Of a stretch of 50,426 nt of DNA, positions 32,656 to 40,868 are shown one piece after another; the first letter of the stretch is position 1, and the number at the start of each line of letters is the position of its first letter. The DNA is taken from contig CAMKNZ010000015.1 in the NCBI GenBank assembly GCA_946414315.1, positions 1 to 50,426 of the forward strand. The letters run 5' to 3'. The stretch is from an uncultured Clostridia bacterium (lineage in GTDB: Bacteria; Bacillota; Clostridia; Christensenellales; Aristaeellaceae). Below the pieces are notes generated by a model. It was not told the origin of the DNA. It did no database searches and was given only the letters and a program-made list of their open reading frames with translations. The translations under genes and the position numbers were made by a program.

Positions 32656-35262
32656 ATGGACCGCAATACGCCTTTGTATGATACGAGCCTTTCGAACGAG
32701 GAACGGGCAAAATGGCTCGTTTCCCAGCTGACCGTTGAGGAGAAGTTCTCCTGGTTCTGCGCCCGGATCCGGAACGAGCGGCTGGGCTTCGCCGTGTCCA
32801 CCATCGGCGGGGAGGGCGCCCACGGCGTTCAGGCCCGGGCCGGGCAGGGGGAGATGTATCCCCCGACGCCCACGACTTCCTTTACCCAGCCCATCGGCAT
32901 GGCCGCGTCCTTTGACCGGGAGCTCATCCGCAAAGCCGGCGACGTGACCGGGAAGGAATCCCGCGCCTTCGCGAACGCGGTCGGCAAGGGCGGCCACGGC
33001 CGCCTGGCGCCCACCGTCGACCTGTGCCGGGATCCCCGCTGGGGCCGGAACGAGGAAGGCTACGGCGAGGATCCGTACCTGACGGGTAAGATGGCCTCCG
33101 CCTATATCCTCGGCATGCAGGACGAGCACAACTACGACGGTACGCCCCTGAAGGAAGGGGAGCGGGGCGACCGGGTCCGGACCGCCGCGGTACTGAAGCA
33201 TTTCTATGCCAACAACCAGGAATACCGCCGCGGATACGACAGCTTCGACATCAGCGACAAGGTCAAGTACGACTACGAGCTGGAATCCTTCCGCTACTGC
33301 GCGGAGGAAGGCCACGCCGAGGGCGTCATGACCTCCTATAACGAGATCAACCACCTGCCGGCCATGCTGAACCACGAGGTCCAGGATATCCTGAAGGACC
33401 GGTGGGGCATGCACTACGCCATGACGGACGGCGGGGACTTCCTGCAGACCGTGAACTTCCACCACTATTTCGAGACCCATGCCGAAACCCTGGCCGAGGG
33501 CGTGAAGGCCGGCGTGGACGCGATGCTGGACAACCCCTTTGAGGTGGTCAAAGCGGCGAAGGAAGCCTGGGAGCGGGGCCTGATCACGGAAGCGGAAATG
33601 GACAAGTCCATCGTCTGCACGGCGACGGAGCTGATCCGCCAGGGGGTCTTCGACCCGGAGGATCCCTATGCGGAGCTGGACATGGCGGACGTGGGAACGG
33701 ACGAGGCGAAGCGGATCTCCCTGCAGATGAGCCGGGAATCCAACGTCCTGCTGAAAAACGAGAACGGCTTCCTGCCCCTGAAAAAAGACGACGACATCGC
33801 CCTGATCGGCTTTGTCGGCAGCAACTGGTATATGGACTGGTATGCCGGGAAACCCCTGTACAAAGTGACGCTGAAGGCTGGCCTGGAGAAGAAGACGCAC
33901 CGGGAGATCCCCTATGAAAGCGGGCAGACCCTGTTCCGCTTCAAAGCCGGGGACAAGTATATCGGCGGCAGCCATCCGGCCCGGATCCCCTGGGGAACGC
34001 CCGATCCCGGCCCGGCGGAGCTGGTGCTGGTGGATAAAGCTGAGGACGCCGTCGTCTTTGAACAGCTGAACTGGGGCTGCGGCAGCAATTTCCTCTATGC
34101 CCCCGCCTACAGGAAGTATGTGACGGTGGGGCCGGACGGAAAGATCAGCCTGGCTTCCGACGAACCCTTTACCTTCATGGTTATGGAAAACTTCACCATC
34201 GGCAAGGCCGACGCGGTGCGTACGCCGAAGCCCCGCAACGCCAACTGCGTGGAGCTGACCGAATACTGGAACGACGAAGCCTGCGACGTGAAGCTCTACT
34301 GCTTCGGAAACCGGAACGTGTACCTGGAGGACGGAAAGCTGAAGACGGATCCGCTCAGGAGGCTGCGGCCCGAGAGCAACACCAAGGAAGGCGGCAACGT
34401 GGAGGAAGCCTGGGCCGGCTCTGAGAAGGAAGCTTCGGCGCTGACGGTGGAGATCGTCTCCGACGGCATCGAGCGCGCGAAGGAACTGGCGAAGAAGGCA
34501 AAGAAGGTGATCGTGGCCCTGGGCTGCAATCCGGTCATGAACGCGAAGGAAGAGATCGACCGGAGCACCATCGAAATGATCCCGCTGCAGCAGAAACTGC
34601 TGGAGGCGGTGTACGGGGTGAACCCGAACACGGCCGTGGTGCTCATTGCCAACTATCCCTACGCGATCAACTGGATGCAGGAGCATGTGCCGGCGATCCT
34701 GACGAACGCCACCGGATCCCAGGACCTGGGCAACGGCCTGGCCGACGCGCTCTTCGGGGACGCGAACCCCGCGGGGCGGCTCCCCATGACCTGGTACAGG
34801 AGCGACGCGGACCTGCCCCCGCTGGAGGATTACGACCTGATCAGCCATCCCCGGACCTACCGCTACTTTGACAGGCCGGTGCTGTATCCCTTCGGCTACG
34901 GCCTGAGCTATACGACCTTCGGCTACGGAGACCTGCGGGTGGAAAAGAAAAACGGCGGCCTGCGGGCCACCGTGAAGGTGACGAATACGGGAAGCGTGCC
35001 CGGCGACGAGGTGGCCCAGCTGTATATCAGGCGGGTATCGCCCTCGGGAACGGTGCATCCGCTCCGCCGGCTCATCGGCTTTGAGCGGCTGCACGACCTT
35101 GCTCCCGGGGAGAGCCGGGAGGCCGTCTTCAACGTGAACCCCTGCGACCTGGAGATCTATATGGAAAAGGAAGGAAAGAAGGTCGTGGAGCCCGGAAAGT
35201 ACCTGGTCTACGCCGGCGGTTCCTGCCTGGATGAGCGGACGGCCGCGGAAATCGAACTGTGA
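32656..35262 (+). CDS. GH3 beta-glycosidase, cytosolic
   Basis: The 868-residue enzyme has no signal peptide, so it acts on imported oligosaccharides. The TIM barrel (about 1-320) contains LAPTVDLCRDPRWGRNEEGYGEDPYL and KHFYANNQE (Lys181-His182). MTDGGD has the candidate nucleophile Asp258; SDW is the usual form, so TDG is a variant. The alpha/beta sandwich domain starts near 355 (SRESNVLLKNENGFLPL). A beta-rich insertion covers about 420-560. A C-terminal Fn3-like domain follows (TVKVTNTGSVPGDEVAQLYI). Specificity is probably beta-glucoside or beta-xyloside. The stop overlaps a 35259 reading, but the nitroreductase starts at 35286. Confidence 0.93.
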   Translation: MDRNTPLYDTSLSNEERAKWLVSQLTVEEKFSWFCARIRNERLGFAVSTIGGEGAHGVQARAGQGEMYPPTPTTSFTQPIGMAASFDRELIRKAGDVTGKESRAFANAVGKGGHGRLAPTVDLCRDPRWGRNEEGYGEDPYLTGKMASAYILGMQDEHNYDGTPLKEGERGDRVRTAAVLKHFYANNQEYRRGYDSFDISDKVKYDYELESFRYCAEEGHAEGVMTSYNEINHLPAMLNHEVQDILKDRWGMHYAMTDGGDFLQTVNFHHYFETHAETLAEGVKAGVDAMLDNPFEVVKAAKEAWERGLITEAEMDKSIVCTATELIRQGVFDPEDPYAELDMADVGTDEAKRISLQMSRESNVLLKNENGFLPLKKDDDIALIGFVGSNWYMDWYAGKPLYKVTLKAGLEKKTHREIPYESGQTLFRFKAGDKYIGGSHPARIPWGTPDPGPAELVLVDKAEDAVVFEQLNWGCGSNFLYAPAYRKYVTVGPDGKISLASDEPFTFMVMENFTIGKADAVRTPKPRNANCVELTEYWNDEACDVKLYCFGNRNVYLEDGKLKTDPLRRLRPESNTKEGGNVEEAWAGSEKEASALTVEIVSDGIERAKELAKKAKKVIVALGCNPVMNAKEEIDRSTIEMIPLQQKLLEAVYGVNPNTAVVLIANYPYAINWMQEHVPAILTNATGSQDLGNGLADALFGDANPAGRLPMTWYRSDADLPPLEDYDLISHPRTYRYFDRPVLYPFGYGLSYTTFGYGDLRVEKKNGGLRATVKVTNTGSVPGDEVAQLYIRRVSPSGTVHPLRRLIGFERLHDLAPGESREAVFNVNPCDLEIYMEKEGKKVVEPGKYLVYAGGSCLDERTAAEIEL

Positions 35263-36778: not shown

Positions 36779-37102
36779 TCAGAAGACCAACTGGATCAGC
36801 AGCATATAGACGGCGGTTCCGCTGAGGATGCTCAGCAGGGTGCTTCGCTTCCATGCCTGCAGGATAACGACCAGCGCGCCGGCGATGAGCTCGGGGGCGC
36901 CGAAGGGGGCGGCTGTGACCGCGGTGTCCTTCAGGCAGTAAATCACCAGCATCCCGATGATGGCCGGCGGCAGTACCCTACCCAGGTAAGAGACATATGC
37001 CGGGACCTTCTTCCGGAAGACCAGGAAGGGCAGGGCCCGGAGCAGCACGGTGACCGCGGACATGACGGCAATCAGGACAGCGGAATGGGAAGCTGTACTC
37101 AT
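36779..37102 (-). CDS. azlD: AzlD-family exporter subunit, second copy
   Basis: The start at 37102 (MSTASHSAVLIAVMSAVTVL) follows AGGAGG, giving 107 residues. RALPFLVFRKKVP and LPPAIIGMLVIYCLKDT match the first AzlD. Its start overlaps the last base of the azlC stop. The partner azlC is frameshifted in this assembly. Confidence 0.92.
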   Translation of the reverse strand: MSTASHSAVLIAVMSAVTVLLRALPFLVFRKKVPAYVSYLGRVLPPAIIGMLVIYCLKDTAVTAAPFGAPELIAGALVVILQAWKRSTLLSILSGTAVYMLLIQLVF

Positions 37103-37799
37103 CACGCGGCCTCCTTTCCGGCGGCGGTCCGGTTCCGCAGCAGCGTCAGCACCAGGGTGATCAACAGCATTGCGGGGATCAGGAAGCGTTCCGGCCCGAA
37201 GGCCAGCAGGCACGCGAGGGTGCCGAAAAGCCCCGTCAGCGCGGGCAGGTGGTCCTTCATGGTGATCCACTGTTCCGTAAAGGAGGCAATGAACAGGGCG
37301 GTCATGGAGAACTCGATCCCGGCGGTGGAAAAGGGCAGGACGCCGCCCAACAGGGCGCCGGCCAGGCTGCCCGTAACCCACCAGGCCTGGTTGAACAGGG
37401 AAACGAGGAAACGGAACAGGCCGGGATCTGTTCCTTCCGGCGTTTTGCCGTCGCAGAGCAGGGAATAGGTTTCGTCCGTCAGGGCAAAAACCAGGTAAGG
37501 TTTGTATTTGCCGGCATCCCCTTATACCGGCCGATCATGGAAATGCTGTAGAAGAGATGCCGGGCGTTGACCATCACGGTGGTGACTGCGGTGATCAGAA
37601 CGGACGCGCCGCCCTGCAGCAGACCGATCCCCACATACTGCATGGAGCCGGCGAAGATCAGCAGGCTCATGGCCAGGACCCAGGGCACGCCGTAGCCGGC
37701 GTTATGGGCCAGGATCCCGAAACCCATGCCCAAAACCACGTATCCGCCCATGACGGGGAGGGACTTCAGGAAGGCTTTCCGGGCAGTCAGCGCGCGCAT
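37102..37799 (-). pseudogene. azlC: AzlC-family exporter subunit, second copy, frameshifted
   Basis: The first part (37799 to about 37500) reads RALTARKAFLKSLPVMGGYVV and VNARHLFYSIS; it stops early after ANTNLTWFLP. Adding one A to the AAA at plus 37501-37503 gives NTKPYLVFALTDETYSLLC and continues through EFSMTALFIASFTEQW to the stop at 37102. That is the same error type as in the CDF gene. The gene starts 40 bases after the ABC ATPase stop, likely in the same transcript. Joined, about 232 residues. Confidence 0.87.
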
Positions 37800-37839: not shown

Positions 37840-38634
37840 TCAGGAAAGCAGCATCCGGTCGTTGACGAAGGTTTCGCCGCTGGCTTTGGCAAAGGCCTCC
37901 ATCAGCCGTTCGATGGTGAGCTGCTTTTTCTCCTCTCCGGAGATATCCAGGATGATCCGGCCTTCGTTCATCATGATCAGGCGGTTGCCGTACCGGATCG
38001 CGTCTTTCATATTATGCGTGACCATCAAAGTCATCAAGTGGTTTTCGCGGATGATCTTTTCAGAAAGCTCCAGCACCTTGGCGGCCGTCCGCGGATCCAG
38101 CGCGGCGGTGTGTTCGTCCAGCAGCAGGAGCTTCGGTTTTTTCAGGGTGGCCATCAGCAGGGTCAGCGCCTGCCGCTGCCCCCCGGAGAGCAGGCCGACC
38201 TTTGCGGTCATCCGGTCCTCCAGGCCCAGGCCGAGCTGGGCCAGCTGGTCCCGGTACGCGGCGCGCTCCTCGCGGGTGATGCCGGTTTTCAGCGTCCGGC
38301 TGTCGCCGCGGCGGGCGGCCAGGGCCAGGTTCTCCTCGATCTGCATCGTCGCCGCGGTACCCATCATCGGGTCCTGGAAGACCCGGCCCAGCACGATGGC
38401 CCGTTTATGCTCCGGCATGCCGGTAATGTCCCGGCCGTCGATGACGATGCTGCCGCTGTCCACCGGCCAGACGCCCGCGATGGCGTTCAGCAGGGTGGAT
38501 TTTCCGGCACCGTTTCCGCCGATCACGGTGACGAAGTCCTCCGCCTCCAGGTGCAGGCTGACGCCGTCCAGCGCGATCCGCTCGTTGACGGTCTTCACGT
38601 TGAAGGTTTTTCTGACGTCGGTGATATCAAGCAT
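37840..38634 (-). CDS. ABC transporter ATP-binding protein (TrpZ-type)
   Basis: The start at 38634 (MLDITDVRKTFNV) gives 264 residues. Walker A GGNGAGKST, the Q-loop VFQDP, signature LSGGQRQAL, Walker B KLLLLDEHTAALD and the switch His in VTHNM are all intact. It powers the importer formed with the permease and binding protein directly upstream. It overlaps the permease end by 8 bases. Confidence 0.94.
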   Translation of the reverse strand: MLDITDVRKTFNVKTVNERIALDGVSLHLEAEDFVTVIGGNGAGKSTLLNAIAGVWPVDSGSIVIDGRDITGMPEHKRAIVLGRVFQDPMMGTAATMQIEENLALAARRGDSRTLKTGITREERAAYRDQLAQLGLGLEDRMTAKVGLLSGGQRQALTLLMATLKKPKLLLLDEHTAALDPRTAAKVLELSEKIIRENHLMTLMVTHNMKDAIRYGNRLIMMNEGRIILDISGEEKKQLTIERLMEAFAKASGETFVNDRMLLS

Positions 38635-39553
38635 GTTCGCGGCCTCCTTTCCGGTGGTGCTTTGCGGCCAGGTTTGTCCGCCAGTAAGGCACGGCCAGGA
38701 ATACCGCCACAATGAGCGCGGAGAGCAGCTTGAGCAGGTTCGTGTTCAGGCCCAGCCACAGCACGATCTGGATCACAATGAAGTACAGCACAGCGCCGAC
38801 CGCGACGCCGATCAGTTTCAGGGCGAAATTCCGGAAGATCCGGCTGAAGAGCACCTCGCTGATGATGACTGCGGCCAGGCCGATGACGATGGCACCGCGT
38901 CCCATGTTGACGTCCACGAAGCCCTGGTAATGGGCCAGCAGGGCGGAGGCCAGGGCGACGATCCCGTTGGAGATCATGAGCCCAAGGATCTTCACCCTTT
39001 TTGTGTTGATGCCCTGGGCCCGGGACATGGCCTCATTGGCGCCGGTGGAGCGCAGGACGCTGCCCAGCTCCGTGCCGAAGAACCAGTACAGGACCCCGAT
39101 CAGGACCGCCAGGATGAACAGGGTGATGAAGATCGGGTTATCGATGCTCAGGGTGCGGACGTTCCGCTGGCTGACGATCAGCTGGTACTTGGTCACGTTG
39201 ATTCCCTGGTTGGCTTTGAAATCCATCACGGCCAGGTTCAGCGAGTACAGCGACAGCTGGGTCAGGATGCCGGCGAGGATGGCCGGGATGCCCATGCCGG
39301 TATGGAACAGGCCGGTGATCAGGCCGGCCAGCATGCCGGCAATGACAGCGCACAGCAGTGAAAGCCAGACGTTGCAGCCGCCCAGCATCATCATTACACA
39401 GACGGCGCCGCCGGTGGCCATGCTGCCGTCCACGGTCAGGTCCGCCAGGTCCAGAACCTTATAGGTGATATACACGCCGATGGACATGATGCCCCAGATC
39501 AGCCCCTGGGCGACCGCACCGGGCAGCGCGTTGAAAAGAGATAACAGATTCAC
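38627..39553 (-). CDS. ABC transporter permease (TrpY-type)
   Basis: The GTG at 39553 is 8 bases after GGGGG; a TTG at 39568 is too near the ribosome site. The 308-residue protein has about eight or nine membrane segments and motifs such as QGLIWGIMSIGVYITYKVLDLADLTVDGSMATG. These mark the permeases that go with TrpX-type binding proteins. It probably forms a homodimeric channel. Confidence 0.92.
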   Translation of the reverse strand: MNLLSLFNALPGAVAQGLIWGIMSIGVYITYKVLDLADLTVDGSMATGGAVCVMMMLGGCNVWLSLLCAVIAGMLAGLITGLFHTGMGIPAILAGILTQLSLYSLNLAVMDFKANQGINVTKYQLIVSQRNVRTLSIDNPIFITLFILAVLIGVLYWFFGTELGSVLRSTGANEAMSRAQGINTKRVKILGLMISNGIVALASALLAHYQGFVDVNMGRGAIVIGLAAVIISEVLFSRIFRNFALKLIGVAVGAVLYFIVIQIVLWLGLNTNLLKLLSALIVAVFLAVPYWRTNLAAKHHRKGGREHA

Positions 39554-39620
39554 GGTATTGTCCCCCAAACCACAGTATGGGAGGGACCCGCAGGATCCCT
39601 CCCGGATCAGAAACGGCGGA

Positions 39621-40615: not shown

Positions 40616-40648
40616 AAAAAGGGGATCCTTCCATCCGGAAGAACCCCC
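40616..40648 (-). terminator. Attenuator terminator before the ABC importer
   Basis: On the minus strand GGGGGTTCTTCC (plus 40637-40648) pairs with GGAAGGATCCCC (plus 40621-40632): 12 pairs, two of them G-T, loop GGAT, followed by TTTTT. It lies between the leader peptide stop and the binding-protein start, about 45 bases before the start codon. Confidence 0.88.
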
Positions 40649-40674
40649 TTGCTGATCGCTGTCTTCAGGTTCCT
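40639..40674 (-). promoter_or_regulatory. Candidate antiterminator hairpin
   Basis: AGGAACC (plus 40668-40674), two bases after the leader peptide stop, can pair with GGTTCTT (plus 40639-40645): 7 pairs with one wobble. That uses the 5' arm of the terminator, so the two hairpins exclude each other. A ribosome at the leader stop would cover AGGAACC and favour termination; a ribosome stalled earlier would leave it free. Confidence 0.7.
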
Positions 40675-40675
40675 G

Positions 40676-40804
40676 TCAGATGGATCGGGCAGCCATGCTC
40701 CGGATAAAGTAAAAGTGCAGGGCAAAAAAGCGCACTGCACTGAAATAAGCGAAGATGGCGGACAGACGGGCGGCGTGCAGACGGCGGATAATTGTATTTT
40801 TCAT
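40676..40804 (-). CDS. Phe/Tyr-rich leader peptide, 42 codons
   Basis: The ATG at 40804 opens a 42-codon frame ending at TGA (40676-40678). GGGGG precedes it. The peptide begins MKNTIIRRLHAARLSA and contains IFAYFS and FFALHFYF. That is six Phe and two Tyr within 16 codons and no Trp. The aromatic cluster ends about ten codons before the stop. Promoter, peptide, antiterminator and terminator are in the order of classical amino acid attenuators such as pheL. It is too short for standard gene calling. The peptide content suggests phenylalanine and/or tyrosine supply controls the importer. Confidence 0.75.
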   Translation of the reverse strand: MKNTIIRRLHAARLSAIFAYFSAVRFFALHFYFIRSMAARSI

Positions 40805-40840
40805 AACGCACGCGGCCCCCTTCTGAAAGAACTTGCTGAA

Positions 40841-40868
40841 ATTATAGCATTGAAAGGGGCAAAGTCAA
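40841..40868 (-). promoter_or_regulatory. Promoter of the leader-ABC importer transcript
   Basis: On the minus strand TTGACT (plus 40863-40868), 16 bases, TATAAT (plus 40841-40846), with TGC before the -10. Near-consensus; the leader ATG is 37 bases downstream of the -10. Confidence 0.85.

Follow-up and report, generated by a model that had tools for sequence, protein, structure and literature searches.

A stretch of 50,426 nucleotides from an uncultured Clostridia bacterium (contig CAMKNZ010000015.1 of assembly GCA_946414315.1; hereafter the window) very probably carries a ribosome-mediated leader-peptide transcription attenuator, predicted to sense charged tRNA-Phe and tRNA-Tyr and to control a TrpX-type ABC importer of phenylalanine and/or tyrosine. 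Ribosome-mediated attenuation had been proposed in an earlier note on this DNA, and the reading is supported here by Phe/Tyr-rich frames conserved among relatives, by covariation of the helices and by a comparison of each locus with permuted partners (p = 5e-5).

Architecture of the leader region

All features listed for the leader between 40868 and 40616 on the minus strand are present (Table 1). The promoter and the 42-codon Phe/Tyr-rich frame lie as the earlier note had described them. The frame, preceded by a Shine-Dalgarno-like AAGGGGG motif, translates as MKNTIIRRLHAARLSAIFAYFSAVRFFALHFYFIRSMAARSI and ends with FAYFSAVRFFALHFYFIRSMAARSI. Among 27 excised leaders (the window and 26 relatives; L049 is not in this set), TTGAC is found upstream in all 27 and TATAAT in 26, the second count not being independent because the excision was anchored on a −10-like motif. 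An overlapping GTG frame (MRYEKYNYPP...) was rejected as the leader frame, since in the relatives neither of the two remaining frames has an aromatic run of that kind.

Table 1. Features of the leader and of the downstream operon in the window.
Feature	Position	Strand	Remarks
Sigma-70-type promoter	40841..40868	−	TTGACT 40868-40863, 16 bases, TATAAT 40846-40841; read directly
Shine-Dalgarno-like AGAAGGGGG of the leader frame	40816..40824	−	11 bases ahead of the ATG; read directly
Leader peptide frame	40676..40804	−	42 codons; 6 Phe and 2 Tyr within codons 18-33
Control codons FFALHFYF	40706..40729	−	codons 26-33; F/Y columns conserved in the alignment of relatives
Hairpin P1 within the frame, GUGCAG...CUGCAC	40715..40740	−	ahead of and partly over the control codons
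Antiterminator 5′ arm	40668..40683	−	CCAUCUG (last codons and stop; 40683-40677) plus AGGAACC (40674-40668)
Antiterminator 3′ arm	40631..40645	−	GGUUCUU 40645-40639 (terminator 5′ arm) plus CGGAUGG 40637-40631 (terminator loop, start of 3′ arm)
Intrinsic terminator	40616..40650	−	14-pair stem (40650-40619), GGAU loop, TTTTT 40620-40616
trpX-type substrate-binding protein, PF04392	39621..40571	−	first operon gene; ATG 40571 behind AAGGAGG
Permease, PF02653, TrpY-type	38627..39568	−	domain match; present in 79/80 relatives' loci
ATPase, PF00005, TrpZ-type	37840..38712	−	domain match; present in 77/80 relatives' loci
azlC (interrupted frame) and azlD	36779..37799	−	domain matches AzlC, AzlD

The leader folds better than its shuffled versions (z −4.75; none of 200 shuffles as good). 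Hairpin P1 is a probable RNA polymerase pause hairpin, and the U-rich tract behind it by itself favours Phe codons. The antiterminator and the intrinsic terminator are mutually exclusive, one arm being common to both. Of the 7-bp antiterminator and 12-bp terminator previously proposed, the AGGAACC:GGUUCUU helix, the shared arm and the TTTTT run all stand, but both structures are longer than was thought: a second, upper helix that had been missed, CCAUCUG:CGGAUGG, brings the antiterminator to 14 bp, and the terminator stem counts 14 pairs, which its AUCA...UGAU flanks could extend past the U run. Once transcription has passed the terminator 5′ arm and loop but gone no further, the antiterminator reaches −18.9 kcal/mol; the finished terminator has −22.7 kcal/mol. 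In the minimum-energy fold without a ribosome, the 5′ end of the transcript pairs with the antiterminator 5′ arm and leaves the terminator.

The spacing in the window fits these energies to ribosome positions, the footprint edge being taken as 15 bases from the first base of the A-site codon. With a ribosome on codons 26-33, the antiterminator arm stays exposed 10 to 31 bases further on (window only); with this assumed footprint, a ribosome at the stop codon covers the arm, and the remaining stretch folds at −3.3 kcal/mol. With charged tRNA in good supply, the leading ribosome would translate to the stop codon and cover CCAUCUGA-AGGAACC; with the arm covered, the terminator would form and transcription would end near 40616. 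When charged tRNA is scarce, the ribosome would stall in FFALHFYF, with 10 to 31 bases left before the arm, and CCAUCUG-AC-AGGAACC would capture the emerging terminator 5′ arm and loop, allowing the polymerase to read into trpXYZ.

At gathering scores, an Rfam scan of the window returned tRNA only, with no leader family and no T-box (RF00230), and no T-box was found at G000:C15 either. A DNA search of a plasmid collection with the leader as query gave no match.

Conservation of the frame and of its Phe/Tyr codons

Orthologues of the importer were collected at several depths. A contig search supplied the set of relatives (best 80 of 570). Searching 45 genomes of the same genus gave 26 orthologues at ≥ 61% identity, that of the window included, of which 5 are preceded by the leader, 12 by a T-box, 2 (L004 and L006) by a terminator without the frame and 7 by neither. 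Among 250 genomes of the family, which is assigned to the Clostridia on database taxonomy, 110 contain an orthologue at E ≤ 1e-80, with many further leaders.

At least four Phe or Tyr codons within ten occur in 50 of 146 non-redundant orthologue upstreams lacking a T-box, against 2.2% of shuffles, an excess of Phe and Tyr with z of about 20. Tyr (z 16.9) and Phe (z 16.2) are the most over-represented residues in these upstreams, followed by Ala (7.1), with Trp at 0.9. The 25 T-box upstreams, where Phe has z 4.5 and Tyr z 1.5, show what U-rich DNA alone yields. The earlier note had called for a search of orthologues for a short frame with clustered Phe/Tyr codons; homologous frames could be curated at 34 loci, all with such a cluster, the exceptions being L004 and L006 of the same genus, which keep promoter, terminator and importer gene and lack the frame, and L051, where no complete leader frame was found. 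At the 34 loci, the maximum of Phe plus Tyr per ten codons averages 5.85 in the leader frame versus 2.59 and 2.82 in the other two. Seven aligned positions of the control region hold F or Y in 52-97% of rows, and at F/Y-rich columns Tyr makes up 42 of the 85 non-Phe residues (Ser 9, Gly 6, Ile 6, Leu 3, Val 2, Cys 0). This interchange of Phe and Tyr speaks for translation of the frame.

Codon statistics do not prove this translation, which we infer, since changes in the frames show no third-position excess, either overall (445/442/465 at positions 1/2/3 of 1606 codons) or by region (512/538/517 in the N-terminal part, 157/231/190 in the control region), as expected if only the control codons matter.

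Aromatic leader frames of a different build precede further orthologues at L063 (Sphaerochaeta), L077, L085, L216 and L226; such frames include members of the Oscillospiraceae (L085, and L097, which is cut by the contig end), and these leaders possibly have independent origins.

Covariation and duplex tests

Covariation of both hairpins, which the earlier note had proposed as a check, was found for the terminator and the upper antiterminator helix; a fixed alignment captures the lower helix poorly. In the 39 sequences of alignment A2, the terminator is paired in 97.1% of cells and 6 of its 14 pairs show changes in both partners; for P1 the figures are 87.7% and 3 of 6. Pairing in the CCAUCUG:CGGAUGG helix extends to 95.9% of cells, and 4 of its 7 pairs have changed in both partners, a result reached by none of 500 shuffles; the sequences behind these alignment-based counts are related and come largely from one family, so that shuffles overstate the significance. 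On the fixed alignment A1, pairing of the lower helix, AGGAACC:GGUUCUU, is poor (3 of 7 pairs in under 15% of rows); this helix slides in register.

The duplex tests started from the 50 upstreams with at least four Phe plus Tyr; 34 terminators were found automatically and 8 re-anchored by hand, L065, L072, L074, L095, L143, L178, L225 and L240 being left out of both tests and L224 of the unanchored one. A test tied to the stop codon was run first and gave a weak signal (own −9.71 versus permuted −8.98, p = 0.014; 5 of 34 loci better than 95% of shuffles), as the stop lies behind the arm, on its downstream side, in many species. An unanchored, alignment-free version came after it, in which the 66 bases ahead of each terminator were paired with their own or with permuted terminator arms. 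Over 36 family loci the own pairings average −24.36 versus −20.71 (sd 0.49) for the permuted ones, with none of 20,000 permutations as low (p = 5e-5), and at 32 of 41 loci the pairing is stronger than in 95% of shuffles of the sequence concerned.

The importer operon and its predicted substrate

The three importer genes are followed in the window by azlC and azlD, which are probably co-transcribed with them. The azlC frame is broken at 37381-37500 on the minus strand, where an early stop is followed by similar coding in another frame, reflecting either a sequencing error or a decayed gene. The earlier suggestion that azlCD is switched together with the importer does not carry over to the relatives, and these genes were rejected as a conserved target of the attenuator: AzlC is present in just 2 and AzlD in none of the 80 loci, whose flanks extend no more than about 1 kb beyond the ATPase gene, some loci ending earlier. 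In six of the 80 loci (L035, L036, L038, L040, L051 and L054) a DAHP synthase gene lies behind trpXYZ, where a single attenuator may govern both the importer and aromatic synthesis.

The aromatic ligand inferred in the earlier note is backed by T-boxes on sister orthologues and by the residues of the ligand site. T-boxes were recognised by pattern and reading, with a specifier scan that took only UUC, UAC and UGG behind GAA. The 32 orthologue T-boxes found in this way, some of which represent one species twice (e.g., L056 and L168), read UUC in 28 cases and UAC in 2, with 2 unread, and all 32 have T in the antiterminator bulge. The T-boxes of a paralogue at 30% identity read UGG in 4 of 5 cases (1 unread), with C in the bulge in 4 of 5. 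In T-boxes, a bulge T pairs with the A discriminator of tRNA-Phe and tRNA-Tyr, and C with the G of tRNA-Trp. The register was checked within the same genus, where UAC is found behind GAA and one further base before an aminotransferase and a symporter, and UGG behind GAA before a trpB-like gene, these genes being named by eye. In one scan the matches before orthologues score 84 to 89 bits, below the Rfam gathering score of 93, and in another, of 20 loci, one (L009) passed that score; in the former, the T-box about 90 bases before the G001 orthologue scores 88.6 bits and the one before the paralogue in the window's own genome (G000:C11) 89.9 bits, both below the cut-off. This paralogue (L002, T-box at 33765-34010 of G000:C11) is a second TrpX-like gene of that genome, and its relatives have a Trp specifier there.

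The closest solved relatives of the binding protein are 6hni, 3lft and 3lkv, that is, CD0873, SP1069 and VC_1101, which hold Tyr, Trp and Phe, respectively, selectivity being set by Glu plus Tyr in Tyr binders, Ala plus Tyr in Phe binders and Ala plus Gln in Trp binders (PMC6816091). The window protein has Glu251 and Tyr267 (numbered in the 323-residue frame 40592-39621), which predicts the tyrosine type, as in CD0873. The Glu/Tyr pair occurs in 38 of 41 leader-type and 26 of 28 T-box-type orthologues and in all 72 orthologues without a recognised element, and therefore marks the orthologue group rather than the leader. The paralogue has Ala/Tyr in 5 of 5 sequences, the Phe type by the same source (PMC6816091), despite its Trp-reading T-box, the alignment at 30% identity being uncertain. 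Against the TrpX equivalog NF041285 (tryptophan-binding), the window protein scores 213.3 bits, below the cut-off of 390. From the sister T-boxes and the Glu/Tyr residues, the importer is predicted to carry Phe/Tyr and not Trp.

The same leader build before other operons

Scanned against 300 genomes of the family, a covariance model of the importer leaders (R1) matched 69 of them at E ≤ 0.01, with 65 places below 1e-6. We read the surroundings of 20 places, 14 of which had been picked as not lying at a known trpX place; these 14 indeed stand before other genes and the other six before trpX. Domain scans were made on one locus of each kind, to which the remaining loci were matched. One more place, G105:C22, runs off its contig.

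Two of the 14 places, from one genus (L315:500-652 and L323:281-417), precede genes for DAHP synthase, an ACT protein, trpE and trpD and carry the codons FFFGWWSW (WW.W), which makes them a candidate trp attenuator in Clostridia. Another (L322:275-422) has RFLLLGL before a leuA-like gene with the Pfam domains HMGL-like and LeuA_dimer, scoring below the cut-offs of the NCBIfam 2-isopropylmalate synthase models. The remaining 11 precede a phenylacetate-CoA-ligase-like (PaaK-like) gene, with a TIGR02155 match below cut-off, and an ACT-domain gene; all 11 are Phe-rich and 9 have a Trp codon, typically as FWFF. The PaaK-like and ACT genes perhaps serve phenylalanine synthesis from phenylacetate. 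PaaK-like/ACT leaders were noted at L316-L321, L324-L328 and L376. The codons fit the operon pathway for Trp with trpE-trpD (n = 2), for Leu with the leuA-like gene (n = 1) and for Phe/Tyr with importers whose sisters have Phe/Tyr T-boxes.

Among 396 genomes at the level of the order, matches at E ≤ 1e-4 outside the family came from just two: G406, where the match again precedes the PaaK-like gene, and G589, where it is short and partial. On reading, 19 weak places (E 1.6e-4 to 0.64) were discarded as showing no convincing leader, save one incomplete copy (L361).

Alternative explanations

The helices could belong to a plain terminator/antiterminator pair, or to two tandem terminators of which one is P1 with its U-rich tail, under the control of a protein or small molecule, the Phe-rich frame being a by-product of U-rich DNA. 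P1 followed by UUUUACUUU does resemble a weak terminator, the T-box upstreams have a Phe excess of their own, L004 and L006 have the terminator but no frame, and the leader frames give no codon-position signal. However, Tyr is as enriched as Phe in the upstreams lacking a T-box and is not enriched in the T-box upstreams, it is the main substitute for Phe, and the aromatic excess falls mainly in one frame; the leader at L180 (71-245, minus strand) even has eight consecutive Tyr codons before the importer. The same build, moreover, has Trp or Leu codons at the control site before other operons, and we regard this explanation as improbable. Those switches to Trp or Leu with the operon also argue against a frame that encodes a functional small hydrophobic peptide, such as a transporter subunit, followed by an ordinary intergenic terminator. 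The C-terminal part of the frame is hydrophobic and of similar character at the 34 loci, as such a peptide would be, but the N-terminal halves vary widely, codon-position bias is absent and the final codons take part in the antiterminator helix, so that this second explanation appears the least probable of all.

Within the preferred reading, ribosome-mediated attenuation, the attenuator could sense a single amino acid, Phe or Tyr, rather than both. The sister T-boxes read predominantly UUC (28 of 32, against 2 with UAC), the Glu of the binding site fits a tyrosine binder (PMC6816091), the run at L180 is of Tyr, and the window has three times as many Phe as Tyr codons in its aromatic stretch. 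Against this, the leaders mix both codons and aligned positions swap F and Y; a single-amino-acid sensor is thus a real but doubtful possibility.

Relation to known attenuators and evolution of the regulators

The mechanism itself is classical. The enterobacterial pheL/pheA, pheST and trpL attenuators likewise combine a leader peptide carrying runs of cognate codons, an antiterminator/terminator switch and a U-run terminator; the window differs in having no Rfam match, in an antiterminator that takes up the terminator loop and includes the last leader codons, and in its target, a Clostridia importer. What is new is the Phe/Tyr version on a TrpX-type importer and its spread over several operons, which is unusual.

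The earlier note held leader-peptide attenuation of this transporter family in Clostridia to be undescribed. For the importer this stands, as none of the literature matches listed, in a search mostly outside subscription journals, reports a leader-peptide attenuator for TrpX-type importers or for this family; leader-peptide attenuation as such had already been described in Firmicutes, including his operons of Clostridia (PMC2965389, PMC9413887 and PMC5794164). Leaders of his genes are reported from the Bacillus cereus group, Eubacteriales (Peptostreptococcaceae, Lutispora) and Erysipelotrichales (PMC9413887) and hisS/hisZ leaders from Firmicutes (PMC2965389). These too are predicted cases of ribosome-mediated attenuation, which replace T-boxes in some lineages; they concern histidine and biosynthesis or synthetase genes, whereas the window concerns Phe/Tyr and an ABC importer, with similar leaders on several operons. 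The Leu-rich ilvD attenuator peptide of Staphylococcus aureus, described as genetically supported, shares the mechanism and differs in serving a branched-chain synthesis operon (PMC5794164). The uORFC-13-1 motif before aroF in Acholeplasma, a candidate Phe-sensing frame with a terminator, belongs to another lineage and a synthesis gene and is described, in the part of the report available, with at least one Phe codon and no named antiterminator (PMC8632094). A TrpXYZ importer of Streptococcus suis is reported to be under T-box control (PMC9382623), thus the same transporter type under tRNA-charging control, with Trp and a T-box there and Phe/Tyr and a leader peptide in the window.

When the regulator label is mapped onto a tree of 105 orthologues, 15 changes are required (minimum 4; shuffled mean 53.6), or 3 for the leader and T-box rows alone, and some T-box orthologues group with leader ones. 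The tree was made by a quick method with SH-aLRT only and holds 105 of 153 sequences, including 24 of the 72 without a recognised element; the 153 are those left after removing 17 loci judged to be duplicate genomes, plus L032, L033 and L142. An exchange of T-box and leader peptide has been reported for hisS (PMC2965389). We think it reasonably likely that one attenuator build (promoter, frame with P1 and two-part antiterminator reaching into the terminator loop) has spread to four or more kinds of amino-acid operon inside one Clostridia family, retuned by swaps of the control codons (Phe/Tyr, Phe plus Trp, Trp, Leu) and exchanged on the Phe/Tyr importer with T-boxes of the same specificity.

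If the attenuator works as predicted, leader-peptide attenuation in Clostridia would be widened from histidine genes to aromatic amino-acid uptake, and importers usually labelled as tryptophan transporters would be assigned a Phe/Tyr substrate. The family would also offer a natural experiment, with T-box and leader peptide, two unrelated sensors of tRNA charging, acting on orthologues within a genus, and with a single RNA build adapted by exchanging codons.
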